Below, piece after piece: positions 4,583-21,142 of a stretch of 21,158 nt of DNA; position 1 is the first letter of the stretch, and each line of letters opens with the position of its first letter. Position numbers and translations under genes: made by a program. The notes under the pieces were generated by a model. The model was not told the DNA's origin, made no database searches, and worked only from the letters and a program-made list of their open reading frames with translations. Source of the stretch: a virus; IMG/VR virus record IMGVR_UViG_3300008107_000771, positions 1 to 21,158 of that record. One strand, 5' to 3'.

Positions 4583-5113
4583 ATGTCTAATCAATTTCCA
4601 AAAACCTCATCAATTAACCGTAAAAATGCTATAGACTGTGGACAAAAAATTTATGATGGTGTGCCTTGTAAAACTTGCGGTTCGACAAAGAAACATGTTT
4701 CCAGTTATAGTTGTGTGAATTGCAACGTCAAACGTAATTTACCTAAACTTTATGACAAAGAGTTAATGTCGAAATATAGGACAAAAGATAAAGTTGATCT
4801 TTATTGGAAAAATAATCCAGATAAATTTAAAGCAAAAAACGACAAATATAACAATTCAGAAAAAGGTAAAATTGTCAATGCTAACAAAGCGGCAAAAAGG
4901 AGAGCTAGTGTCCGAAATCAATTGCCAGTCGATGCGGATTTAGATATAATCAAAAGTATATATGAAGAATGCCGGAGATTGTGTGTAGAAACTGGTGTTA
5001 TACATGAGGTGGATCATATTATTCCTATTGCAAAAGGTGGACTTCATCACCAAGATAATTTACAAATTCTTACTATGACACAAAACAGAAAAAAGGGTTC
5101 CAACATATTATGA
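4583..5113 (+). CDS. Free-standing HNH endonuclease with N-terminal zinc finger
   Basis: A 176-aa nuclease-like protein. Near residues 29-47 a CKTCG...CVNC pair of Cys-x-x-Cys motifs probably binds zinc. A basic middle (about 60-110) is rich in Lys, Asn and Tyr and likely contacts DNA. The C-terminal HNH core reads EVDHIIPIAKGGLHHQDNLQ followed by ILTMTQNRKKG, giving the Asp-His, the Asn of DNLQ and the Asn-Arg-x-Lys end of the family. Such free-standing HNH genes act as homing endonucleases in T-even-like phages. It lies between the nucleotidyltransferase and gene 47 and overlaps gene 47 by four bases (ATGA). Codon use is more AT-rich than in flanking genes, suggesting later insertion. It has its own CTAAATA late-promoter candidate and a GGAG-type ribosome site. 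Confidence 0.88.
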   Translation: MSNQFPKTSSINRKNAIDCGQKIYDGVPCKTCGSTKKHVSSYSCVNCNVKRNLPKLYDKELMSKYRTKDKVDLYWKNNPDKFKAKNDKYNNSEKGKIVNANKAAKRRASVRNQLPVDADLDIIKSIYEECRRLCVETGVIHEVDHIIPIAKGGLHHQDNLQILTMTQNRKKGSNIL

Positions 5114-5880
5114 AGGTCGCAATTATTACCGATATTCATTTTGGTGCCAGAAATGACTCGCTCCACTTTTTGGATTTCTATGAAAAGTTTTATGATGAAA
5201 CATTTTTTCCTGCTATTGATTCTGCCGGAATTAATACTCTGCTCATTCTTGGTGACACGTTTGATCGCCGCAAATATGTAAACTTCTATTCTCTGCAACG
5301 TGCAAAGAAGATGTTCTTTGGTAAATTAGCCGCACGTGACATTAAGGTCCACATGCTGGTAGGTAATCACGATACCTATTACAAGAACACAAACGATGTT
5401 AATTCACCAAGACTTGTTCTGGAAGAATATGAGAACATCAATATCATAAAGAATCCGACCACACTACAAATTGAAGACATTTCGATTTGCATGATGCCAT
5501 GGATTTGCCCAGAAAACTATGACGATTCTATGGCAACACTCAAAGATACTAATGCAACAATCTGCATGGGACATTTTGAGATTGAAGGTTTATCACATTT
5601 GAAAGCAACTTATGTTAAAGTTGTTGTTGTGAATAAAACAAATCCATACCTTTTTGACACATTTATTAATAATGTATATCTTGCGAATCCAATTGACATT
5701 ACAATTGCTGAGGACTTTACTGAGTTGGAAGACATTGAGGACAATGATGTGGATCAAGCTGAAGATACCACAACAATACTCAACAAATATGTTGACAACT
5801 TGACAACTGATTTAAAAAAAGATAAAATAAAAACTCTATTAAAAGAGTTATATGTTGAAGCATTGAACGAGGAATCATAA
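5110..5880 (+). CDS. 47: gp47-like (SbcD/Mre11) nuclease subunit with missing central region
   Basis: gp47 is the phosphoesterase partner of gp46; the pair resects DNA ends for recombination. The N-terminal half is a clear family member: DIH (8-10), LGDTFDRRK (47-55), LVGNHDTYYKN (83-93) and MPWICPEN (129-136), ending in CMGHFEIEG (152-160). The C-terminal half resembles the end of T4 gp47 (strand YVKVVVVNKTNPYLFDTFIN, acidic linker, helix TTILNKYVDNL). The protein is only 256 aa, whereas T4 gp47 is about 340. Comparison from memory places the missing ~80-90 residues right after residue 160. That region normally holds the GHxH metal-binding motif and the GTPW loop, and neither occurs here. 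The frame stays open. It is coupled to the HNH gene (ATGA) and to the next gene (taATG). Confidence 0.88.
   Translation: MKVAIITDIHFGARNDSLHFLDFYEKFYDETFFPAIDSAGINTLLILGDTFDRRKYVNFYSLQRAKKMFFGKLAARDIKVHMLVGNHDTYYKNTNDVNSPRLVLEEYENINIIKNPTTLQIEDISICMMPWICPENYDDSMATLKDTNATICMGHFEIEGLSHLKATYVKVVVVNKTNPYLFDTFINNVYLANPIDITIAEDFTELEDIEDNDVDQAEDTTTILNKYVDNLTTDLKKDKIKTLLKELYVEALNEES
5800..5828 (+). promoter_or_regulatory. Possible internal sigma70 promoter at the end of gene 47
   Basis: TTGACA (5800-5805), 17-bp spacer, TAAAAT (5823-5828), inside the 3' end of gene 47 and 51 bases before the oxygenase start at 5880. It could provide separate early transcription of the oxygenase and gene 46. AT-rich coding DNA can produce such matches by chance. 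Confidence 0.45.
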
Positions 5881-13442: not shown

Positions 13443-14384
13443 ATGGAAAGCAACCAAATGCTTTGGGTGGAAAAGTATCGTCCCCATAAAATTGAGGACT
13501 GTATTCTTCCGGATTCGATTAAAACTACCTTTCAGGAATATGTCAATAAAAAAGAAATCCCGAATTTGTTACTTGCTGGCTCCGCAGGTGTCGGTAAAAC
13601 CACAATCGCAAAAGCACTCTGTGAAGAAGTCGGTTGCGACTTTATTGTCATCAACGGATCAGACGAAAGCGGCATCGACACATTCCGAAACAAAATCAAA
13701 AACTATGCTTCATCAATGAGTCTTTCTGGTGGCCGCAAGGTCATCATTATTGATGAAGCAGATTATCTAAATCCAAACTCAACTCAGCCTGCACTCCGTG
13801 GTGCCATTGAAGAATTCTCGGTAAACTGTTCCTTTATCTTTACCTGTAACTACAAAACTCGTATTATTGAACCTCTACATTCTCGTTGTTCTGTTGTTGA
13901 ATTTAAGATTCAAAACGATCAAAAAGCAAAGATGGCGGCACAATTCTTTAAACGAGTTGAATGGATTCTTTCACAAGAAGGTATTACTTACGATAAACAA
14001 GTTGTTGCCGCTGTTGTGATGAAACACTTTCCGGATAATCGGAGAGTTCTAAATGAATTACAGCGTTACTCGGTATCAGGTACAATTGACAAGGGCATCC
14101 TTGCCGTTATCGCTGATGTTCAAATTTCAGACTTAATCAAAGCCATCAAAGGTAAAGATTTTAGTTCCGCACGTAAGTGGGTTACTAACAATCTCGATTC
14201 TGATTCTGCAACAATTTTACGTAAGATTTATGATTCGATGTACGACTTTTTGAAACCAGATAGTATTCCACCTGCTGTATTGGTTCTTGCAAAGTATCAG
14301 TATCAATCCGCCTTTGTTGCTGACCAAGAAATCAATATGATGGCCTGTTTAACCGAACTCATGGTCGAATGTGAGTTCAAATGA
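13443..14384 (+). CDS. 44: Clamp loader ATPase gp44
   Basis: The large (ATPase) subunit of the clamp loader, which opens gp45 and places it on primed DNA. At 313 aa it matches T4 gp44 (319). Features: the conserved N-terminal LWVEKYRPHKIEDCILP (7-23), Walker A LLAGSAGVGKTTIA (43-56), Walker B IIIDEADYL (101-109), sensor 1 FIFTCNYK (131-138) and the SRC arginine-finger motif LHSRCSVVEF (145-154), followed by the helical collar domain. The ATG has TGGAG upstream. The end overlaps the likely gp62 start region: TGA 14382-14384 precedes the ATG at 14386 by one base. Confidence 0.96.
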   Translation: MESNQMLWVEKYRPHKIEDCILPDSIKTTFQEYVNKKEIPNLLLAGSAGVGKTTIAKALCEEVGCDFIVINGSDESGIDTFRNKIKNYASSMSLSGGRKVIIIDEADYLNPNSTQPALRGAIEEFSVNCSFIFTCNYKTRIIEPLHSRCSVVEFKIQNDQKAKMAAQFFKRVEWILSQEGITYDKQVVAAVVMKHFPDNRRVLNELQRYSVSGTIDKGILAVIADVQISDLIKAIKGKDFSSARKWVTNNLDSDSATILRKIYDSMYDFLKPDSIPPAVLVLAKYQYQSAFVADQEINMMACLTELMVECEFK

Positions 14385-14385
14385 T

Positions 14386-14766
14386 ATGGCTGATCTATTC
14401 AAAGAAATCATTCCGTCCATTCTACAAACAAAGAAAGATGTACTAGAAACTGAAAAAGACTATGTACCTTTTCTTGTGAATCGTTCACTCTCATATCATA
14501 TGGATTGCATCTTGTATGCAAACCAGATGAATATAAATCACTCTTTACCTCAAAAACTTCAATACCAATATCTTCTAAATACCGTTAGGCCGATGAAACG
14601 CAAATTCGAAAAATGGCAAAAAACATCGGTTGTAAAAGATTTAGAGTGTGTGAAAGAATACTTTGGCTATTCGGACGAGAAAGCCAAAGAAGCTCTACGC
14701 ATTTTATCTGATGAAGATATCACTTTGATAAAAGAAAAAATAGAAAAAGGTGGAGTGAAAAAGTAA
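14386..14766 (+). CDS. 62: Clamp loader small subunit gp62
   Basis: The non-ATPase subunit that forms the clamp loader with four gp44 copies. I start it at ATG 14386, giving MADLFKEIIPSILQTKKDV, rather than the GTG at 14371, because the short start resembles cyanophage gp62 proteins. The product is 126 aa, much shorter than T4 gp62 (187 aa) but typical of the short cyanophage-type version. Recognisable blocks are YVPFLVNRSLSYHMDCILYANQMN (given in part), a LPQKLQYQYLLNTVRPMKRK segment, and the terminal GYSDEKAKEALRILSDEDI. It is sandwiched between gene 44 and regA (taATG overlap), the conserved T4 order. Confidence 0.9.
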   Translation: MADLFKEIIPSILQTKKDVLETEKDYVPFLVNRSLSYHMDCILYANQMNINHSLPQKLQYQYLLNTVRPMKRKFEKWQKTSVVKDLECVKEYFGYSDEKAKEALRILSDEDITLIKEKIEKGGVKK

Positions 14767-15176
14767 TGATTAAAATAGAAGATATGGTAGAGGTAACACT
14801 AAATGAAAAAGACGACTTTCTAAAAGTTCGTGAGACACTTACACGCATTGGTGTTGCATCAAAAAAAGAAAAAATACTTTACCAATCTTGCCATATTCTA
14901 CACAAGCAAGGTAAGTATTATATTGTACACTTCAAAGAACTATTCTCTTTGGACGGTAAACCCACAGACCTCACCGAGAATGATATTGCTCGGAGAAATA
15001 CGGTAACCAATCTTTTGTCCGATTGGGAACTATTGAAAATTGTCAAGGAAGATTCGACTAAAGAACCAACGGTTTCTCTTTCTCAAGTGAAAATTATTTC
15101 ACACAAGGAAAAGAATGATTGGGAATTGGTACCTAAGTACAATATAGGTAAAAAGCCGCAAACTCCTTATAAATAA
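14766..15176 (+). CDS. regA: RegA translational repressor
   Basis: RegA binds ribosome-binding regions of early phage mRNAs and blocks their translation. The 136-aa product aligns well with T4 RegA (122 aa): FLKVRETLTRIGVASKKEKI, LYQSCHILHKQGKYYIVHFKEL, DLTENDIARRNTVTNLLSDW and the C-terminal WELVPKYNIGKKPQ are nearly family-consensus. An eight-residue N-terminal addition (MIKIEDMV) precedes the usual start. It is coupled to gene 62 by taATG. Its stop codon lies inside a TATAAATA late-promoter match. In T4 and cyanophages the DNA polymerase gene 43 follows regA; here a structured non-coding region and hsp20 follow instead. Confidence 0.96.
   Translation: MIKIEDMVEVTLNEKDDFLKVRETLTRIGVASKKEKILYQSCHILHKQGKYYIVHFKELFSLDGKPTDLTENDIARRNTVTNLLSDWELLKIVKEDSTKEPTVSLSQVKIISHKEKNDWELVPKYNIGKKPQTPYK
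15168..15175 (+). promoter_or_regulatory. Candidate late promoter TATAAATA over the regA stop codon
   Basis: An exact T4 late-promoter box TATAAATA overlaps the regA TAA (15174-15176). Transcription would begin a few bases downstream, at the start of the structured leader of hsp20. Confidence 0.62.
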
Positions 15177-15391
15177 GATTATCCCCGAGATGGGAACTAC
15201 CATGCCGCTGAAGGGTAGTTAAATATCCAGCGGTGCCGATTTTGCCCACCTTAGGGCTGTTTGATGCTACGGTAAAAGGCGTCCGTGTAATTACACCTCT
15301 GACACGAAAGTTCAGACCAGTATAAGGTAAGCTGGACAACCCGCCATGCCTTCGGGGTGGCATTATAAACTCGCTTTAATTAGGGGAAACT
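15177..15391 (+). ncRNA. Highly structured non-coding leader (or ncRNA) upstream of hsp20
   Basis: These 215 bases between regA and hsp20 hold no plausible gene but many compatible helices. A: an H-type pseudoknot, AACTACC (15195-15201) with GGTAGTT (15214-15220), whose loop strand CCGCTG (15205-15210) pairs with CAGCGG (15228-15233). B: GCCC/GGGC (15244-15257). C: CGTGT/ACACG (15284-15306). D: GTTCAG/CTGGAC (15310-15337, one G-T pair). E: a hairpin 15343-15361 capped by a classic C(TTCG)G loop with one bulged G. The 5' TCCCC (15182-15186) can pair with GGGGA of the hsp20 ribosome site (15383-15387). No run of T follows helix E, so a leader is more likely than a terminated RNA. It matches no riboswitch or ribozyme consensus I could recall. 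Confidence 0.62.
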
Positions 15392-15862
15392 ATGACACAT
15401 CTATCATTGCCATACGGCAAATCTTTGCTTCCGTCCACTGTCGGTTTCGACCGACTTCTGAGCACCTTTGAAGAATTTGATAATCTTCTTCAAACTGGTG
15501 CCAAAATCCAAACTTATCCACCATACAACATTGTCAAAGAAGATGATGAAAACTACACGATTGAAATTGCGGTATCCGGTTTCAAGCGTGATGAAATCGA
15601 AATCACTTCAGAAGGTGGAAAACTTTATGTGAACGGAGCCATCAAAACAGCCAGAACCTCAGACAAGTATCTACATCGTGGTATCGGTACAAGGGATTTT
15701 TCTCATAAATTTGTACTATCGGATACTATCGTTGTAAGAGATGCCGATATCATGGACGGTTTATTGGTCATCAATCTGGTAAACATCATTCCAGAAGAAA
15801 AAAAACCACGTAAAATCGACATTGGTTGTAGTAAAAATACAACAGATGACTTGACAAAATAA
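15392..15862 (+). CDS. hsp20: Small heat-shock protein (Hsp20/IbpA-like)
   Basis: A 156-aa ATP-independent holdase chaperone. The alpha-crystallin domain covers about residues 45-140: YPPYNIVKEDDENYTIEIAV at its start, then SGFKRDEIEITSEGGKLYV, RGIGTRDFSHKFVLSDTIVV (the family's R-x-F.R/H-x-F-x-L strand) and the DADIMDGLLVINL strand. The N-terminal arm (LPYGKSLLPSTVGFDRLLSTF) resembles IbpA. Hsp20 genes are common in T4-like cyanophages. The ATG has TAGGGGAA upstream and is preceded by the ~215-base structured leader, which could control translation (RNA-thermometer control is known for other hsp20 genes). The next promoter (15851) lies across its last codons. Confidence 0.94.
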   Translation: MTHLSLPYGKSLLPSTVGFDRLLSTFEEFDNLLQTGAKIQTYPPYNIVKEDDENYTIEIAVSGFKRDEIEITSEGGKLYVNGAIKTARTSDKYLHRGIGTRDFSHKFVLSDTIVVRDADIMDGLLVINLVNIIPEEKKPRKIDIGCSKNTTDDLTK

Positions 15863-17234: not shown

Positions 17235-17309
17235 CCGGTGTTAGTATAATGGATAATACAGTAGGCTTCTACCCTACGAATATGGGTTCGATTCCTGTAC
17301 GCCGGACCA
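17235..17309 (+). tRNA. trnR-UCU: tRNA-Arg (anticodon UCU, CCA encoded)
   Basis: Acceptor CCGGTGT (17235-17241) pairs with ACGCCGG (17299-17305, one G-T pair); discriminator A, then encoded CCA (17307-17309). D arm GTAT/ATAC; anticodon stem GTAGG/CCTAC with loop CTTCTAC (UCU at 17268-17270); T loop TTCGATT. It reads AGA, a codon frequent in AT-rich phage genes. It stands alone between two protein genes, apart from the main cluster. Confidence 0.95.
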
Positions 17310-17324
17310 AAATAGGGAAAAATT

Positions 17325-17774
17325 ATGTCAATTACATTACAAAATCTTGAGAGTGCTTTGGCCGGTGAGTCAATGGCACATATCAAGTATCGTTACTTTG
17401 CTAAACTTGCAAGGGCAGAAGGATACGAAGAAGTTGCACAACACTTTGAACATACTGCCAACCAAGAAATTCTACATGCATGGGGACACCTCGAATTGCT
17501 GATTGGTAAACCAACCACTAAAGAATGCTTAGAACTTGCCATTGCCGGTGAAACTTATGAGTACACAGAGATGTATCCTGGTTTCGTAATGCGAGCCAAG
17601 GCTGAACAAAACATTGAAGCCGTAAAAGAATTCAATGAACAAGGTCGTGAATCTTTAGAACACGCCATGCAATTTAAAGCACTATTAGAAAAAGCTGAAA
17701 AGCGTTTTGCCGCTTTGGCTAAGGTCGAAAAACGCCACGCCGAAGCATACACACAAGTATTGGAGAACATGTAA
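17325..17774 (+). CDS. Rubrerythrin, diiron domain only
   Basis: A 149-aa ferritin-like four-helix protein of the rubrerythrin family, which reduces peroxide in microaerobic bacteria. The pattern is clear: LESALAGESMAHIKYRYFAK (7-26), HFEHTANQEILHAWGHLELL (with ExxH), a second pair LAIAGETYEYTEMYPGF with E-x-x-x-Y, and a final ExxH in KVEKRHAEAY. These supply the iron-ligand Glu and His residues. Typical rubrerythrins (~190 aa) continue into a rubredoxin-like domain; this one stops, and a separate rubredoxin gene follows by a one-base overlap (taATG). The ATG has AGGGA upstream, just after tRNA-Arg. Phage-encoded rubrerythrin is uncommon in my knowledge. Confidence 0.9.
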   Translation: MSITLQNLESALAGESMAHIKYRYFAKLARAEGYEEVAQHFEHTANQEILHAWGHLELLIGKPTTKECLELAIAGETYEYTEMYPGFVMRAKAEQNIEAVKEFNEQGRESLEHAMQFKALLEKAEKRFAALAKVEKRHAEAYTQVLENM

Positions 17775-17902
17775 TGGATCACGTTTGCATTGTTTGTGGA
17801 CACGTCCACGATGAAGAATTAGAAGGATCATGGGACACTTTACCTGATGACTTTTTGTGTCCAGAATGTGGTGTCGGTAAAGAAGATTATGAAACTTTTT
17901 GA
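17774..17902 (+). CDS. Small rubredoxin
   Basis: A 42-residue iron-sulphur (one Fe, four Cys) electron carrier. Both Cys pairs are present: Cys5-x-x-Cys8-Gly and Cys29-Pro-x-Cys32-Gly, in the signature LPDDFLCPECGVGKEDYE, which is that of true rubredoxins. It is shorter than the usual ~52 residues because the loop between the pairs is contracted (EELEGSWDT, missing the usual PxxG region). It starts at ATG 17774 overlapping the rubrerythrin stop (TAATG), so the two are made together. The likely role is electron donor to the diiron rubrerythrin, in effect a rubrerythrin split into two proteins. Confidence 0.9.
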   Translation: MDHVCIVCGHVHDEELEGSWDTLPDDFLCPECGVGKEDYETF

Positions 17903-17908
17903 TTTCAC

Positions 17909-18340
17909 ATGAAACGAAAATTCATTGATGCATATATGAAAACGGCCGAGGTGTTCGCAGAATTATCCTCAGCCCGTAGACTTCATGTTGGTGCGATTGT
18001 CGTAAAAGATGATCGCATCATTTCTATTGGTTATAATGGAATGCCGTCCGGTTGGGACAATAATTGTGAGGATGATTTTGGCTTAGATTTTTCAGGTAAA
18101 CAAACTCTAGTAACAAAGCCGGAGGTACTACATGCAGAAACCAATGCCATCGCCAAATTGGCGAAATCTACTGAATCCGGTGATGGTGCTTCTATCTTTA
18201 TCACTCATGCCCCTTGCCTTGATTGCGCCAAACTTGTTTATCAAAGCGGTATCGATTCTGTGTATTATCGCAATACTTATCGTTCTGATTCAGGTATTGA
18301 GTTCCTAGTAAGAGCAGGTGTTCGGGTACAACAAGTATAA
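17909..18340 (+). CDS. cd: dCMP deaminase
   Basis: Converts dCMP to dUMP, feeding thymidylate synthesis for phage DNA. The 143-aa protein carries the zinc deaminase signatures HAETNAI (about residues 73-79; zinc His and catalytic Glu) and APCLDCAKLV (about 98-107; two zinc Cys). The N-terminal SARRLHVGAIVVKDDRIISIGYNGMPSG block is the standard deoxycytidylate deaminase start (quoted in parts: RLHVGAIVVKDDRI, GYNGMPSG). T4 Cd is longer (~190 aa); this compact form is nearer to bacterial-type enzymes. The gene lies six bases after rubredoxin. No good ribosome site is seen upstream, so coupling is possible. It acts with the dNMP kinase at 11445 in nucleotide supply. Confidence 0.93.
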   Translation: MKRKFIDAYMKTAEVFAELSSARRLHVGAIVVKDDRIISIGYNGMPSGWDNNCEDDFGLDFSGKQTLVTKPEVLHAETNAIAKLAKSTESGDGASIFITHAPCLDCAKLVYQSGIDSVYYRNTYRSDSGIEFLVRAGVRVQQV

Positions 18341-18366
18341 TTTCACATTATGAAATCTCCAAGTAC

Positions 18367-18373
18367 CTAAATA
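18367..18373 (+). promoter_or_regulatory. Candidate late promoter CTAAATA before the SprT-like gene
   Basis: CCTAAATA ends 20 bases before ATG 18394, and CTGGAG precedes the start. The eight-base CCTAAATA, the CTGGAG and the ATG distance match the site at 626-633. Confidence 0.55.
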
Positions 18374-18393
18374 TCATAGCTACTGGAGATAAC

Positions 18394-18933
18394 ATGCAAG
18401 TCAGAATTGTCAACTGTCCAGATAAAGATTTCAAACCTTTCGTGAAAAGGTCTGTAAACTTTTACGCTGAAAATTTGATACCCAGTAAGCGTCTGCGAGA
18501 CAACATATGTCTGACAGTCAAATTCAATTCAAAAATCAACGTCTGGGCGTTTGCTTCAATAGAAGAATATAATGCTTCAAATAAACCAAGAGAGTTTCTA
18601 ATCGAAATTCATCCTTGGATTGGAGCCGCAGAAATACTAAAAACTCTTGCACATGAAATGGTGCATATAAAACAGTTTGCTAATGGAGAGACAAACGAGA
18701 CTCTTTCAAAGTGGAAGGGCATGTCAATCGATTCTGATGCCATAGATTACTATCAACATCCTTGGGAACTTGAAGCATATAGTTTAGAAACTGGACTATG
18801 GACAAAGTTTGCAGTTAAAGAAGAATTATGGAACGTGTTTGGTGATGTTGGAAATCCTGATGCACCGATAGAAAAAAAAGATATAAAATGGAAATATTTG
18901 AATGACGAAGACCGCACTACTCCTAACAGGTAA
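18394..18933 (+). CDS. SprT-like zinc metalloprotease-type protein
   Basis: A 179-aa protein with the zinc-protease motif HEMVHIKQ (HExxH at 87-91) preceded by IGAAEILKTLA, as in SprT-family proteins. A likely third ligand is the Glu in HPWELEAYSLE (about 122-132), 30-plus residues later. SprT/Spartan relatives remove DNA-crosslinked proteins in cells; phage versions are common in T4-like cyanophages, with unknown function. The start is supported by CTGGAG upstream and a CTAAATA late-promoter candidate, implying late expression. Its last 32 bases overlap the next gene in another frame. Confidence 0.83.
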   Translation: MQVRIVNCPDKDFKPFVKRSVNFYAENLIPSKRLRDNICLTVKFNSKINVWAFASIEEYNASNKPREFLIEIHPWIGAAEILKTLAHEMVHIKQFANGETNETLSKWKGMSIDSDAIDYYQHPWELEAYSLETGLWTKFAVKEELWNVFGDVGNPDAPIEKKDIKWKYLNDEDRTTPNR

Positions 18934-19630
18934 CCCACGATTTTCAATAGACTTTGATTCACAGTTAAAAAATCTAACAAACTCAGACATTGAAATTTTC
19001 ATTGCGTTTTGGCGGAGGCCAGAAGGTGTTGATCCAAAACTATCTCTGAACTGGTGTAATCTAAAAGATGGTTCGGAAGTTTATAAAAGATTATTGCCGG
19101 AGTTACCTTCAAATTATAGAATTACTATTTGTGAAGTGTTTAACGATTCTTTTGCAGGTCAAATCCCGCAAGATTATGAACCATACAATAGCACTCCAGT
19201 AAATGTGTGGCAACAATATAAATTGTTAAAACATGCATATCAAGCAATACACCAATTAGGCTATTTCGATTTGGTCGTGCGTTCTCGCACCGACTTAGGG
19301 CTTAGTGAACCGATTGATTTGAAATTAGCACACTCATGCTTACTACAGACCCCAAATTGCATATACACACCGAACAACCAACGTTACGGATATTATCCAA
19401 ATTTTAATGACCAGTTCGCAATAGGTTTACCACACATCATGGAAATCTATTGCAATGCGGTAGATACGTTCGACACCTTGTACCGTCAAGGTGTCAAATA
19501 CAATCCAGAATATTTGTTACAGACACATTTAGCAAATTATGGAATCTCCTGGCCAGAAACCTCATGGGAAATTGTCCGTGATCCTGCACACTATGTACCA
19601 ATTCAACATGGTAAATGGAAAGAAATTTAA
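18902..19630 (+). CDS. Glycosyltransferase-like protein
   Basis: A 242-aa protein whose start, MTKTALLLTGNPRFSIDFDS, resembles small GT-type sugar transferases (beta strand, then a basic loop). IEIFIAFWRRPEG gives a second strand, and YFDLVVRSRTDLGLSEPIDL contains the R-x-R-T-D motif typical of DxD-like acceptor sites in viral and bacterial polysaccharide enzymes. The C-terminal half has aromatic residues (NQRYGYYPNFNDQFAIGLPH). I cannot name a substrate, and the assignment is by pattern only. The ATG at 18902 begins inside the SprT-like gene (32-base overlap), with AAATGGAAAT as the only upstream purine run. It is the last protein gene before the non-coding RNA and tRNA region. Confidence 0.6.
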   Translation: MTKTALLLTGNPRFSIDFDSQLKNLTNSDIEIFIAFWRRPEGVDPKLSLNWCNLKDGSEVYKRLLPELPSNYRITICEVFNDSFAGQIPQDYEPYNSTPVNVWQQYKLLKHAYQAIHQLGYFDLVVRSRTDLGLSEPIDLKLAHSCLLQTPNCIYTPNNQRYGYYPNFNDQFAIGLPHIMEIYCNAVDTFDTLYRQGVKYNPEYLLQTHLANYGISWPETSWEIVRDPAHYVPIQHGKWKEI

Positions 19631-19649
19631 AAATAATTTAAAAAAAGTC

Positions 19650-19678
19650 TTGCCAACAGAAAAAAAAGCCTATATAAT
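19650..19678 (+). promoter_or_regulatory. Sigma70 promoter of the ncRNA gene
   Basis: TTGCCA (19650-19655), 17-bp spacer, TATAAT (19673-19678). An A/T-rich stretch (19621-19648, mostly A) upstream looks like an UP element. The predicted start is 19684-19686. Confidence 0.83.
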
Positions 19679-19684
19679 AACACT

Positions 19685-19859
19685 ATGAAAAACTTCTCCT
19701 TAACCCTCTCCAAATTAGCCTCGCTGATAGAGTATCGCACACCGTTTATTGGTAGCGATAATCAGTCATGGGCGCACGGAAGGGTTAGTGGAATCAAGTA
19801 ATACATAAAAGTAAACTAAAGTTTCACAACCCTCACAACGAAAGTTCTGAGGGTTTTTT
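19685..19859 (+). ncRNA. Stand-alone structured small RNA, about 175 nt
   Basis: A complete small transcription unit: promoter (19650-19678), 175 bases, terminator (19828-19859). The RNA folds well by hand. P1: TAACCCT, one bulged C, TCC (19701-19711) pairs with GGA-AGGGTTA (19778-19787). Within it, CTGAT (19724-19728) pairs with ATCAG (19761-19765) and TATCGC (19733-19738) with GCGATA (19755-19760), stacked with a four-base bulge on the 5' side, closed by ACC/GGT (19741-19753). CTCCTTA near the 5' end (19696-19702) is complementary to Shine-Dalgarno sequences. A 38-codon frame begins at ATG 19685, but it would start at or next to the RNA 5' end without a ribosome site. No known RNA family was recognised. 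Confidence 0.75.
19828..19859 (+). terminator. Rho-independent terminator of the small RNA
   Basis: AACCCTCA (19828-19835) pairs with TGAGGGTT (19848-19855), continued after a C/C mismatch by AAC/GTT and capped by GAAA (19840-19843). Six T residues follow (19854-19859). Confidence 0.92.
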
Positions 19860-19868
19860 GTTTGGAAG

Positions 19869-19886
19869 TGTTGTAATCTTACAACA
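19869..19886 (+). repeat. 18-bp palindrome TGTTGTA-N4-TACAACA upstream of tRNA promoter 1
   Basis: TGTTGTA (19869-19875) and TACAACA (19880-19886) are exact inverted copies with four bases between. It ends six bases before the -35 of the tRNA promoter. An identical-arm copy precedes the second tRNA promoter at 20948, which suggests a shared protein-binding site. Confidence 0.6.
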
Positions 19887-19892
19887 GCATGG

Positions 19893-19920
19893 TTGACAAA
19901 CAGATTGGTTCTGTTACAAT
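19893..19920 (+). promoter_or_regulatory. Sigma70 promoter of tRNA unit 1
   Basis: TTGACA (19893-19898), 16-bp spacer, TACAAT (19915-19920). The predicted start near 19927 leads directly into the leader repeat and tRNA-Gln. Confidence 0.86.
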
Positions 19921-19929
19921 ACATGTATC

Positions 19930-19974
19930 GATTGAGAAATCAATCATTGTTCTTTAAAAAGTTAAGTGTAATTT
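19930..19974 (+). promoter_or_regulatory. rRNA-like leader, copy 1 (hairpin plus boxA-like element)
   Basis: A 6-bp hairpin GATTGA/TCAATC with GAAA loop (19930-19945) is followed by TGTTCTTTAAAAAG (19948-19961), similar to the boxA antitermination element of rrn leaders (E. coli TGCTCTTTAACA; betaproteobacterial leaders have GTTCTTTAAAAA). The order hairpin then boxA is that of rrn boxB-boxA. A near-identical copy lies at 21018-21063. Confidence 0.7.
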
Positions 19975-19976
19975 GA

Positions 19977-20050
19977 TCCCGAGTAGTGTAGTGGTAACAC
20001 ACCAGACTTTGACTCTGTTATTGTAGGTTCGATTCCTACCTCGGGTGCCA
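19977..20050 (+). tRNA. trnQ-UUG: tRNA-Gln (anticodon UUG, CCA encoded)
   Basis: Acceptor TCCCGAG pairs with CTCGGGT except for an open first pair (U1), a feature common in tRNA-Gln; discriminator G, CCA at 20048-20050. D arm GTGT/ACAC, loop CTTTGAC with anticodon TTG, T arm GTAGG-TTCGATT-CCTAC. It is the first tRNA of unit 1. Confidence 0.94.
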
Positions 20051-20159
20051 TATAAAAACACATTACCTCGCAGTATAGCCGAATCTGTATGTGACTCCTA
20101 GTTGTAACCAAGCGTGAGAACTTGGGGAGTGCGATTCTCATAAGTGTGTTTTTATATGG
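20048..20159 (+). ncRNA. Long stem RNA element between tRNA-Gln and tRNA-Ser
   Basis: CCATATAAAAACACA (20048-20062) and TGTGTTTTTATATGG (20145-20159) form a perfect 15-bp stem starting at the CCA end of tRNA-Gln. Inside, GAATC/GATTC (20081-20085 with 20133-20137), ACTCC/GGAGT (20094-20098 with 20126-20130) and CCAAG/CTTGG (20108-20112 with 20121-20125) make a nested hairpin. It is no canonical tRNA: no GG in a D loop, no TTCRA T loop (only TGCGATT) and no CCA. It recalls the stable non-tRNA RNAs C and D within the T4 tRNA cluster. Confidence 0.65.
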
Positions 20160-20226
20160 TGTTTAATCCCGTGGTTAACTCCACCAGACCGATACGTTTA
20201 GAGCGTGTTGAAGTAAGGGACACCAT
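20156..20226 (+). ncRNA. Second structured RNA element before tRNA-Ser
   Basis: ATGGTG (20156-20161) pairs with CACCAT (20221-20226), stacked on TCCC/GGGA (20167-20170 with 20217-20220) with a five-base bulge. Two inner hairpins follow: GTGG/CCAC (20171-20184) and ATACG/CGTGT (20192-20208). The overall Y shape has no T arm. The left strand overlaps the right arm of the preceding element by four bases, so the two outer helices compete at their ends. Confidence 0.55.
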
Positions 20227-20234
20227 TTAATTTT

Positions 20235-20326
20235 GGAAACGTGGCAGAGTCCGGTTTATTGCTACAGTCTTGAAAACTGTCGATTCAGAAATGGGTCCGT
20301 GAGTTCGAATCTCACCGTTTCCACCA
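20235..20326 (+). tRNA. trnS-UGA: tRNA-Ser (anticodon UGA, CCA encoded)
   Basis: Acceptor GGAAACG/CGTTTCC is perfect; discriminator A and CCA (20324-20326). Anticodon stem ACAGT/ACTGT with loop CTTGAAA (TGA at 20271-20273), a long variable arm as expected for Ser, and T arm GTGAG-TTCGAAT-CTCAC. The discriminator A differs from the usual bacterial G73 for Ser. It reads UCA and related codons. Confidence 0.94.
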
Positions 20327-20341
20327 ATTTTAGGAGTTCTT

Positions 20342-20518
20342 ATGAACGAAGATTTAGTTTATCGTTTGAGAAAACGTGCTGAAATTCGCAGACAAATTAC
20401 TACAAGGAAGTCGGTGCAAGAAAATGCACCAGATAGAATTGCAGATTTGCTAGAAGAAGCGGCAAATAGAATTGAAGAATTGGAGAGTGGGCAGGACGGT
20501 AATGCACCGGTTTGCTAA
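20342..20518 (+). CDS. 58-aa protein ending inside tRNA-Ser(GCU)
   Basis: Starts at ATG 20342 with a good TAGGAG site (20331-20336). The product begins MNEDLVYRLRKRAEIRRQIT and contains a coiled helix, APDRIADLLEEAANRIEELE, of a type common in small phage proteins; the function is unknown. The last 37 bases overlap the tRNA-Ser gene at 20482, and the stop codon TAA (20516-20518) is formed by the anticodon-loop bases following GC. The same transcript must therefore be either translated or cut by RNase P at 20482, which would limit expression. The position just after tRNA-Ser(UGA) and the ribosome site make it a likely real gene. Confidence 0.72.
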   Translation: MNEDLVYRLRKRAEIRRQITTRKSVQENAPDRIADLLEEAANRIEELESGQDGNAPVC

Positions 20519-20571
20519 ACCGCAGGCTTCAGGAATGAGGTCACTGGGTTCGACTCCCAGACTCTCCACCA
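20482..20571 (+). tRNA. trnS-GCU: tRNA-Ser (anticodon GCU, CCA encoded)
   Basis: Acceptor GGAGAGT/ACTCTCC is perfect, discriminator A, CCA at 20569-20571. Anticodon loop TTGCTAA with GCT, long class II variable arm, T arm CTGGG-TTCGACT-CCCAG. It reads AGC/AGU. The 5' 37 bases are shared with the coding sequence that ends at 20518. Confidence 0.93.
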
Positions 20572-20572
20572 T

Positions 20573-20664
20573 GCCCCTATAGTTTAACGGTAAAACGGCG
20601 GATTTATATCCCGTAAGCAACAGATAATTGGTTCATCTGGGTTCGATTCCCGGTGGGGGTACCA
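20573..20664 (+). tRNA. Class II tRNA of uncertain identity (anticodon UAU by position)
   Basis: Acceptor GCCCCTA/TGGGGGT (two G-T pairs), discriminator A, CCA at 20662-20664. D arm GTTT/AAAC; T arm CTGGG-TTCGATT-CCCGG. The anticodon arm GCGGA-TTTATAT-CCCGT leaves A31-C39 unpaired and puts TAT in the anticodon position (would read AUA, Ile). A 22-base variable region with an AAC/GTT hairpin is class II, normal for Leu, Ser or Tyr but not Ile. A shifted loop (TTA or ATA) is possible but pairs worse. Confidence 0.85.
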
Positions 20665-20675
20665 AAAGGATTTTT

Positions 20676-20876
20676 ATGTACAAAGTAATTGGTAAAGAAG
20701 AAACATTCAAAGTTCTTACACTTGCTGAAGCAATGAACATTGCCAAGCATATGAATGAGTTCGTGAGAATTGTTGGAAAAGATTTTGAAATTGTTGGCAT
20801 CTTTGGTGTTGACTCTGTGGAAGATCCAAACTATGATGGTTGGATTTCACGTAAGAAAGATAAAATGTCGGTGTGA
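20676..20876 (+). CDS. 66-aa hypothetical protein ending inside tRNA-Cys
   Basis: ATG 20676 follows AAAAGGA with suitable spacing, 11 bases after the preceding tRNA; a longer upstream frame would start within that tRNA and is not credible. The product begins MYKVIGKEETFKVLTLAEAM and continues with a beta-alpha-beta-like pattern (FVRIVGKDFEIVGIFGVDSV) and a basic end (ISRKKDKMSV). No domain is recognised. The last 10 bases overlap tRNA-Cys, with the TGA stop at 20874-20876 just beyond the acceptor strand of the tRNA. The same arrangement occurs with the gene at 20342. Confidence 0.75.
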   Translation: MYKVIGKEETFKVLTLAEAMNIAKHMNEFVRIVGKDFEIVGIFGVDSVEDPNYDGWISRKKDKMSV

Positions 20877-20942
20877 CCCGAATGGCTAGGGAACGGATTG
20901 CAACCCCGTTACATGCAGGTTCAACTCCTGTCACCGACTCCA
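20867..20942 (+). tRNA. trnC-GCA: tRNA-Cys (anticodon GCA, CCA encoded)
   Basis: Acceptor GTCGGTG/CACCGAC is perfect; discriminator U (T), typical for Cys; CCA at 20940-20942. Anticodon loop TTGCAAC with GCA and the stem ACGGA/CCCGT leaving A31-C39 open, T arm GCAGG-TTCAACT-CCTGT. The 5' ten bases are shared with the small gene ending at 20876. Confidence 0.94.
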
Positions 20943-20947
20943 AGATG

Positions 20948-20965
20948 TGTTGTATTTTTACAACA
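20948..20965 (+). repeat. 18-bp palindrome TGTTGTA-N4-TACAACA upstream of tRNA promoter 2
   Basis: Arms (20948-20954 and 20959-20965) are identical to those at 19869-19886, with four bases between. It sits 15 bases before the -35 of the second tRNA promoter. It could also act as a weak hairpin after tRNA-Cys. Confidence 0.6.
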
Positions 20966-20980
20966 ACGTGCAAATAGATG

Positions 20981-21008
20981 TTGACAAAACCTCTGGTTGT
21001 GTTATACT
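20981..21008 (+). promoter_or_regulatory. Sigma70 promoter of tRNA unit 2
   Basis: TTGACA (20981-20986), 16-bp spacer, TATACT (21003-21008). The same geometry as at 19893, leading into the second leader copy. Confidence 0.86.
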
Positions 21009-21017
21009 CTATGCATA

Positions 21018-21063
21018 GATTGAGAAATCAATCAAATGTTCTTTAAAAAGTTAAGTGTAATTT
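21018..21063 (+). promoter_or_regulatory. rRNA-like leader, copy 2 (hairpin plus boxA-like element)
   Basis: The same GATTGA/TCAATC hairpin with GAAA loop (21018-21033), then TGTTCTTTAAAAAG and AAGTGTAATTT, nearly identical to 19930-19974 with one inserted base and one substitution after the hairpin. It precedes tRNA-Glu. Confidence 0.7.
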
Positions 21064-21067
21064 TTGT

Positions 21068-21142
21068 GCTCCTGTCGTCTACTGGCTAGGACGCTGCCCT
21101 TTCAAGGCGGAGAAGACGGATCGAAACCGTTCGGGAGTACCA
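21068..21142 (+). tRNA. trnE-UUC: tRNA-Glu (anticodon UUC, CCA encoded)
   Basis: Acceptor GCTCCTG/CGGGAGT (with two G-T pairs), discriminator A, CCA at 21140-21142. Anticodon loop CTTTCAA with TTC, D arm GTC..GAC with GGCTAGG loop as in other tRNA-Glu, T loop ATCGAAA in a GACGG/CCGTT arm. It is the first tRNA of unit 2, which runs on beyond the window. Confidence 0.92.

Follow-up and report, generated by a model that had tools for sequence, protein, structure and literature searches.

In bacteria, small heat-shock genes are known to carry RNA thermometers, and the locus described here has a gene of this kind in a phage. The window, by which we mean the whole 21,158-nucleotide stretch of viral DNA that was analyzed, contains a 215-base non-coding gap between the end of regA (15176) and the start of hsp20 (15392), at the place where the original prediction had put a riboswitch-like leader of hsp20. 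An Rfam search of the whole window returned tRNAs only, and a permissive search of the gap gave just two sub-threshold matches, one of them to ROSE_3 (15343-15397). The folding energy of the gap is by itself unremarkable (z = -1.44); structure in 15177-15391 is proven by its homologues and not by folding energy. Sequence comparison identifies this region as a real folded RNA, which would open the mRNA of a phage small heat-shock protein. Readings of the leader as a group I intron, ribozyme, or tmRNA found no support from Rfam or ARAGORN. The coordinates of the leader elements and of the neighboring genes are collected in Table 1.

Table 1. Leader elements and neighboring genes at the hsp20 locus, in window positions
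Feature	Position	Strand	Basis or detail
Clamp loader ATPase gp44	13443-14384		T4-type gene
131-aa ORF at the place of gp62	14371-14766		Assigned by position only
regA	14766-15176		T4-type gene
Predicted T4-type late promoter box TATAAATA, overlapping the regA end	15168-15175	+	Sequence
Predicted start of leader transcript	~15180-15182		
Module A, 5' hairpin UCCC...GGGA (relatives AUCYC/GGGAU)	15182-15195	+	Conserved GGGAUGGG and complementary 5' arm in alignment
Module A, H-type pseudoknot with A-rich loop between stems	15195-15235	+	Shuffles, homologue variants, S1 covariation
Pseudoknot stem S1, AACUACC with GGUAGUU	15195-15201 with 15214-15220		
Pseudoknot stem S2, UGCCGCUG with CAGCGGUG	15203-15210 with 15228-15235		6-bp core is the second stem of the original prediction
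Module B and hairpin I, single covariance-model match	15241-15364	+	Model R1, 130.8 bits
Helix H1, CCC-ACCUUA-GGG, loop almost invariant	15245-15256	+	Invariant columns; helix 1 of B1 covariation test
Helix H2 (15257-15260/15269-15272) and PK1 (H2 loop GAUGCU 15263-15268 with GGCGUC 15278-15283)	15257-15283	+	B1 helices 2 and 3, 99% of cells paired
PK2, CGUG 15284-15287 with CACG 15303-15306	15284-15306	+	B1 helix 4
Helix H4 (15298-15302/15312-15316)	15298-15316	+	B1 helix 5; 5/5 pairs changed on both sides, 100% paired
Helix H5 (15317-15321/15331-15335), loop with conserved GUAA	15317-15335	+	B1 helix 6; 3/5 pairs doubly changed, 100% paired
Hairpin I (module C), GCCAU/GUGGC stem, bulged G15348, CC-UUCG-GG	15343-15361	+	B1 helix 7
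Model R2 match	15343-15388		41.1 bits, E = 1.2e-11; window outside the R2 training set
Hairpin II, ROSE-like, predicted to sequester SD AGGGG (15382-15386)	15370-15386	+	Model R2 match and CUYGCUU motif
hsp20, 156 aa, presumed controlled gene	15392-15862	+	Pfam HSP20, E = 1.1e-15; PHROG 432 Hsp20

Elsewhere in the window lie seven tRNA genes (17235-21142), including a tRNA-Ile with anticodon TAT, and an open reading frame (4583-5113) that by eye resembles a free-standing HNH endonuclease. The latter adjoins a gp47-like recombination nuclease frame (5110-5880) of 256 aa only, possibly through a deletion or an assembly fault; compared with T4 gp47, it presumably is without an internal part.

An Hsp20 protein query against viral contigs yielded 80 loci, and their comparison shows conservation and a modular build in the sequence ahead of hsp20. 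The original prediction had called for homologous leaders and a covariation check: homologues were found, covariation is strong in modules A and B, and nearly every predicted helix of the leader is backed by compensatory changes across tens of homologues. It had also named a lack of covariation, or a coding gene in place of the leader in relatives, as grounds for abandoning the idea, and neither was found. The leader is composed of module A, module B, hairpin I (module C), and the ribosome-site hairpin II, and relatives have the order A, B, hairpin I with a UUCG loop, and then ACUCGCUU..AGGAG. Among phages whose Hsp20 proteins are 92-95% identical to that of the window, module A is present at locus L004 and missing at L002 and L012, and loci L052-L054 have module A with module B missing, from which we conclude that the modules come and go. 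Both are gained and lost independently and were seen only in uncultured contigs. Scanning with a pattern that combined module B and hairpin I gave at least 119 stretches, downstream of which, among the matches listed, lies either a diverse hsp20 or a gene of a helical protein family of 72-98 aa. Module B always stands in one fixed arrangement with hairpin I, a ribosome site, and a gene for a chaperone or small protein. No Rfam match at gathering level, to a riboswitch or otherwise, fell on module A or B within 15177-15391, and these are previously undescribed structured RNA modules with strong covariation.

Five loci (L007, L048, L134, L186, and L254) have an extra module of ~60 nt (CTACTGCAATTGCGCTCCCTA..TAGGTGAT..) between A and B; it is nearly identical where hsp20 differs and was seen in 8 contigs in a scan of the collection. 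The helical family of 72-98 aa, sharing the leader 3' of module B, was observed at L091, L092, L114, L139, L147, L159, and others. The name “phasin” for this small co-regulated protein rested on likeness by eye and was dropped, there being no Pfam, PHROG, or NCBIfam support.

The H-type pseudoknot of the original prediction is present in module A. Its score was reached by 0 of 2000 dinucleotide shuffles of the window, and the same topology occurs in 50 distinct sequences from relatives with at least 15 S1 and at least 35 S2 pairing variants, a count for which the parser demands pairing and the control is the 0 of 2000 window shuffles. In the alignment, 89.5% of S1 cells are paired, compared with 68.7% after shuffling (covariation equaled by 0 of 500 shuffles), with three rows out of register. 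A different fate befell the proposed switch in which TCCCC near the 5' end pairs with GGGGA of the ribosome site: it is possible in the window and occurs in the minimum-energy fold, but it is not conserved. An AGGGG ribosome site is found in 1 of 70 homologous leaders, and the mean match of the 5' end to the Shine-Dalgarno (SD) sequence is 4.31, versus 4.32 with shuffled ends.

Module B, together with hairpin I, gives the sole R1 match in the window, whose sequence was included in R1 training. In subtype B1 (n = 42), a structure with two pseudoknots has 99.7% of its cells paired and 12 of 34 pairs changed on both sides; 0 of 500 shuffles match any of these measures, and sliding the partners by 1-3 columns lowers pairing to <48%. 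The UUCG hairpin and further helices described from the single sequence are thus real. Subtype B2 (n = 23) has 94.9% of cells paired and 13 of 32 pairs changed on both sides, and R1, built on B1 alone, also detects a B2 leader (48 bits), so that the two divergent subtypes constitute one family. Its unpaired stretches ACCUUAGGRC and GUAA are nearly invariant. The individual pseudoknots differ in support: PK1 is consistent with the alignment rather than proven, with changes on one side only, and PK2 rests on one highly variable pair (UA in 19, AU in 11, GC in 7, and GU in 5 sequences, with 23 double changes). Two further pairings, one of the ACCUUA loop with UAAGGU of the H5 loop and one of CCUUA with the SD, can be drawn by eye for part of the sequences but fail in the other subtypes, and both were set aside. 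A three-pair hairpin, GUGUAAUUACAC, was likewise rejected; it is paired in 77.8% only, its innermost pair covaries, and PK2 is better for the outer bases.

In hairpin I, the fold has been kept while the sequence varies, as judged from 44 distinct outer (stem-1) and 30 distinct inner (stem-2) pairings in the minimal leaders. The hairpin with a bulged G occurs in 81 of 88 distinct minimal leaders, compared with 12.6% of shuffles; the corresponding counts for hairpins with an A, C, or T bulge are 12, 3, and 6 leaders. A role as terminator was rejected, no conserved T run being present after it.

The original prediction had held the layout to be unlike ROSE elements, and this view is reversed by the 3' 50 bases. 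Hairpin II in the window sets CUCGCU imperfectly opposite AGGGG through the predicted pairs C15370-G15386, U15371-G15385, C15372-G15384, C15374-G15383, and U15375-A15382, with G15373 bulged; in relatives, CUYGCU of the CUYGCUU motif faces AGGAG, giving C-G, U-A, Y-G, a bulged G, C-G, and U-A. Published descriptions give the ROSE motif as U(U/C)GCU with a bulged G and include a ROSE-like layout of two hairpins, found in the 61- to 62-nt Pseudomonas ibpA leaders, where the first hairpin is stable and the second melts (PMC3669281; PMC11342760). The phage leader has this motif opposite the SD, the stable hairpin (hairpin I) 5' of it, and a 5' UTR position on a small heat-shock gene, and ROSE_3 aligns exactly there. 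The pair flanking the ROSE core matches in 55.7% of cases, compared with 40.5% by chance (p < 0.0005). By eye, SD and anti-SD have changed together in S-TIM5 (CCACGCUU with AAGGUGG) and S-CREM2 (GCUUGCCU with AGGGAGC); the CUYGCU/SD pairing otherwise has little covariation of its own because the SD is conserved.

In minimal leaders the SD is predicted to be buried, with a mean unpaired probability of 0.14 at 20°C versus 0.36 with the upstream part shuffled. Warming from 10 to 42°C raises the computed unpaired value only from 0.13 to 0.22, and an Rfam-level ROSE_3 element likewise changes little in computation (0.01 to 0.13). The window scores 12.3 bits and the best phage (C48C1) 26.8 bits against Rfam ROSE_3 (RF02523), both far below its gathering cut-off of 43. 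In the reciprocal direction, the best match of our model in a Pseudomonas record is that record's Rfam ROSE_3 element, in register and weak (9.3 bits). The FourU arrangement, UUUU paired with AGGA of the SD, is not seen; the conserved anti-SD is CUYGCU. We classify the leader as ROSE-like by motif, layout, and gene context, and by score it is not a ROSE_3 member. One record, OQ572409.1 (Pseudomonas phage Y7, UNVERIFIED), has a full Rfam ROSE_3 element (69.2 bits) as its hsp20 leader, and because of this full match the hsp20 stretch is probably bacterial DNA inside a phage record.

At its 5' end, the leader is preceded just upstream by the TATAAATA box of a predicted T4-type late transcription unit, likewise in relatives. 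The T4 late consensus is TATAAAT, as applied to cyanophages (PMC3037559); most homologous leaders have a TAAATA box no more than 260 nt away, and the commonest distance from ATAAATA to the first base of the stem in minimal leaders is 3-5 nt. The conserved leader ends in a ROSE-like ribosome-site hairpin and is predicted to begin, as part of a late phage mRNA, at a T4-type late box.

We scanned viral contigs for ATAAATA-N-CTYGCTT-N-AGGAG, with the other modules not required. The next gene was hsp20 by profile in 105 of the 123 matches, compared with 0 of 122 in a control scan with the reversed heptamer, and the remaining matches mostly precede truncated hsp20, dnaK, groES, or small helical proteins. 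A covariance model, R2, was built from six minimal leaders; alignments A6 and A7, made from many minimal leaders, were left out of it because their SD columns did not line up. All 12 of the complete genomes of cultured phages that were tested (2.6 Mb in total, mostly cyanophages, with P-SSM2 and S-MbCM100 also in the R2 training set) have their best R2 match immediately 5' of the annotated hsp20, with one further weak match, in S-CREM2. Carriers include P-SSM2, Syn19, S-H38, Pelagibacter phage Mosig, and the jumbo phages PA5oct and Phosso. On 264 kb of unrelated viral DNA R2 found nothing better than E = 0.2, and no such leader was found in Vibrio phage PWH3a-P1. Direct DNA similarity to cultured phages was nowhere convincing; these leaders were reached only by motif and covariance searches. 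In uncultured genomes R2 also marks dnaK, groES, and small-protein genes: a 215-kb contig (G011) carries the leader three times, once each in front of dnaK, hsp20, and a small-protein gene, and contigs G010 and G012 carry it twice each. The association of the leader with phage chaperone (hsp20, dnaK, and groES) and small-protein genes is specific.

Module B is more restricted, being missing from all 12 cultured genomes (searched with R1) and from some close contigs. A bacterial or prophage origin of the leader was rejected: the module B search spanned 84,980 bacterial and archaeal species and gave one match, a chance one apparently in coding sequence.

Several gene neighborhoods were recorded in passing. 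Locus L340 (775-4057) is a viral proteostasis operon, dnaK-hsp20-clpS-heme oxygenase, with a ROSE-like leader inside it. Locus L407 (10774-14158) has groES-groEL-hsp20-clpS and then a gene similar to the heme oxygenase gene of L340, with one leader before groES and another before hsp20. G001, the contig of the close relative L012, has a second ROSE-like leader at ~73055 on the minus strand, and the gene after it begins MFATDTFIDTVQ, resembling the small-protein family.

The observations favor the model that the region is probably a ROSE-like thermometer for translation of a phage chaperone, with extra structural modules at its 5' end. Transcription would start at the late box, and the RNA would fold at once into the stable 5' modules A, B, and hairpin I. 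The weak hairpin II would then hold the SD against CUYGCU with its bulged G, keeping ribosomes off in the cold and opening on warming, as ROSE-like thermometers of bacterial small heat-shock genes do; thermosensing by hairpin II is in this way inferred from known ROSE biology. Modules A and B may protect the 5' end and insulate, or help to fold, the thermosensing hairpin, which is a guess. Against a thermometer, the hosts of lake or sea phages may rarely meet heat shock.

In an unlikely alternative, hairpins I and II would be the binding site of a phage protein, Hsp20 or some other, that keeps translation down until unfolded clients titrate it. The signal would then be protein aggregation in virion assembly rather than temperature, and the dnaK, groES, and small-protein leaders would form a phage chaperone regulon. 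E. coli IbpA represses its own mRNA via its 5' UTR. The nearly invariant bulged G of hairpin I, on stems free to vary, is what a protein-binding hairpin would display, and the several proteostasis genes per phage that have the leader (three in G011, two each in G010 and G012) point the same way; set against this, the bulge could serve folding only. Quite unlikely in our estimation is a constitutive high-expression leader, in which 5' structures stabilize a late mRNA and CUYGCUU/AGGAG is a strong ribosome site, on a plan similar to that of the T7 gene 10 leader with its 5' hairpin, enhancer, and SD. The structures do begin a few bases past the late box, a stable 5' hairpin stabilizes mRNA, as has been suggested for ibpA (PMC3669281), and in T7 g10 an A/U-rich enhancer precedes the SD of the ribosome site (PMC8748333). 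However, the motif specifically marks chaperone and small-protein genes and is not a general feature of late genes, and the SD is predicted to be buried, not exposed.

We regard as very unlikely a ligand-binding riboswitch aptamer, formed by module B and perhaps A, in front of the thermometer. The complex pseudoknotted fold, the nearly invariant unpaired stretches, and the two divergent subtypes would suit an aptamer, but Rfam gave no match, module B is missing from the tested cultured relatives and some close contigs, no conserved alternative pairing of module B with the SD was seen, and there is no link to a metabolic gene; for the riboswitch-like character in the original prediction we found no evidence of a ligand. 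Its further suggestion of a new regulatory RNA class or a non-coding RNA is supported in the first part, as a cis-acting structured hsp20 leader with modules A and B outside Rfam, and found no evidence in the second. Processing or termination into a free non-coding RNA is highly improbable: module B does have much structure, and its conservation exceeds that expected of a simple spacer, but its arrangement with the downstream hairpin I, ribosome site, and chaperone or small-protein gene is fixed, and no conserved T run comes after hairpin I.

Beyond this locus, a wider reading, which we consider unlikely as a whole, is a chaperone regulon (hsp20, dnaK, groES-groEL, and the small helical family) shared by T4-like phages of seas and fresh waters and by two or more jumbo phages, placed under a ROSE-like leader that would answer folding stress during virion production. 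In some uncultured phages, modules A and B would be a later addition, a new pseudoknotted sensor RNA through which a second signal is integrated. Hsp20 is a core cyanophage gene whose role is still guessed at (PMC3037559), and the conserved leader makes it testable in cultured phage-host pairs whether phage chaperones are tuned to temperature or to folding stress. Modules A and B, as new structured RNA families, would be useful as Rfam entries and structure targets.

Isolated RNA thermometers have been described in phages, for example in lambda cIII (PMC4166951) and in blyA of prophage SP-beta (PMC10586365); our searches of the open-access literature turned up no phage chaperone gene with a ROSE-type element. 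FourU thermometers share the idea of an SD-occluding hairpin, whereas the anti-SD of the phage leader is CUYGCU with a bulged G instead of UUUU. Module A shares with the autoregulatory pseudoknot of T4 gene 32 the H type and a place close to the 5' end of an mRNA in a T4-like phage, but module A occurs on hsp20 and small-protein leaders, and no gene 32 occurrence was noticed in our scans. The T7 gene 10 leader has a structured 5' start. This feature, an A/U-rich stretch, and a strong SD are shared with the phage leader, but the g10 ribosome site drives robust expression (PMC8748333), whereas the SD here is predicted to be buried. Classical ROSE elements (RF00435, of Bradyrhizobium hspA, and ROSE_2, of enterobacterial ibpA) have several stable 5' hairpins before a thermosensing 3' hairpin with U(U/C)GCU, a plan that the phage leader follows with upstream parts that are pseudoknotted and unrelated in sequence; neither Rfam model matched the window or the tested phages. 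The ROSE-like thermometer of Pseudomonas ibpA (ROSE_3, RF02523; PMC3669281) shares the small heat-shock 5' UTR, the stable hairpin I, of similar sequence (AUGCC..GGGUC), and a hairpin II pairing U(U/C)GCU with the SD around a bulged G, and the minimal phage leaders are about equal to it in length. The phage version differs in its Rfam score below the cut-off, in standing under a predicted T4-type late promoter, in also preceding dnaK, groES, and small-protein genes, and, in the window, in the addition of modules A and B in front.
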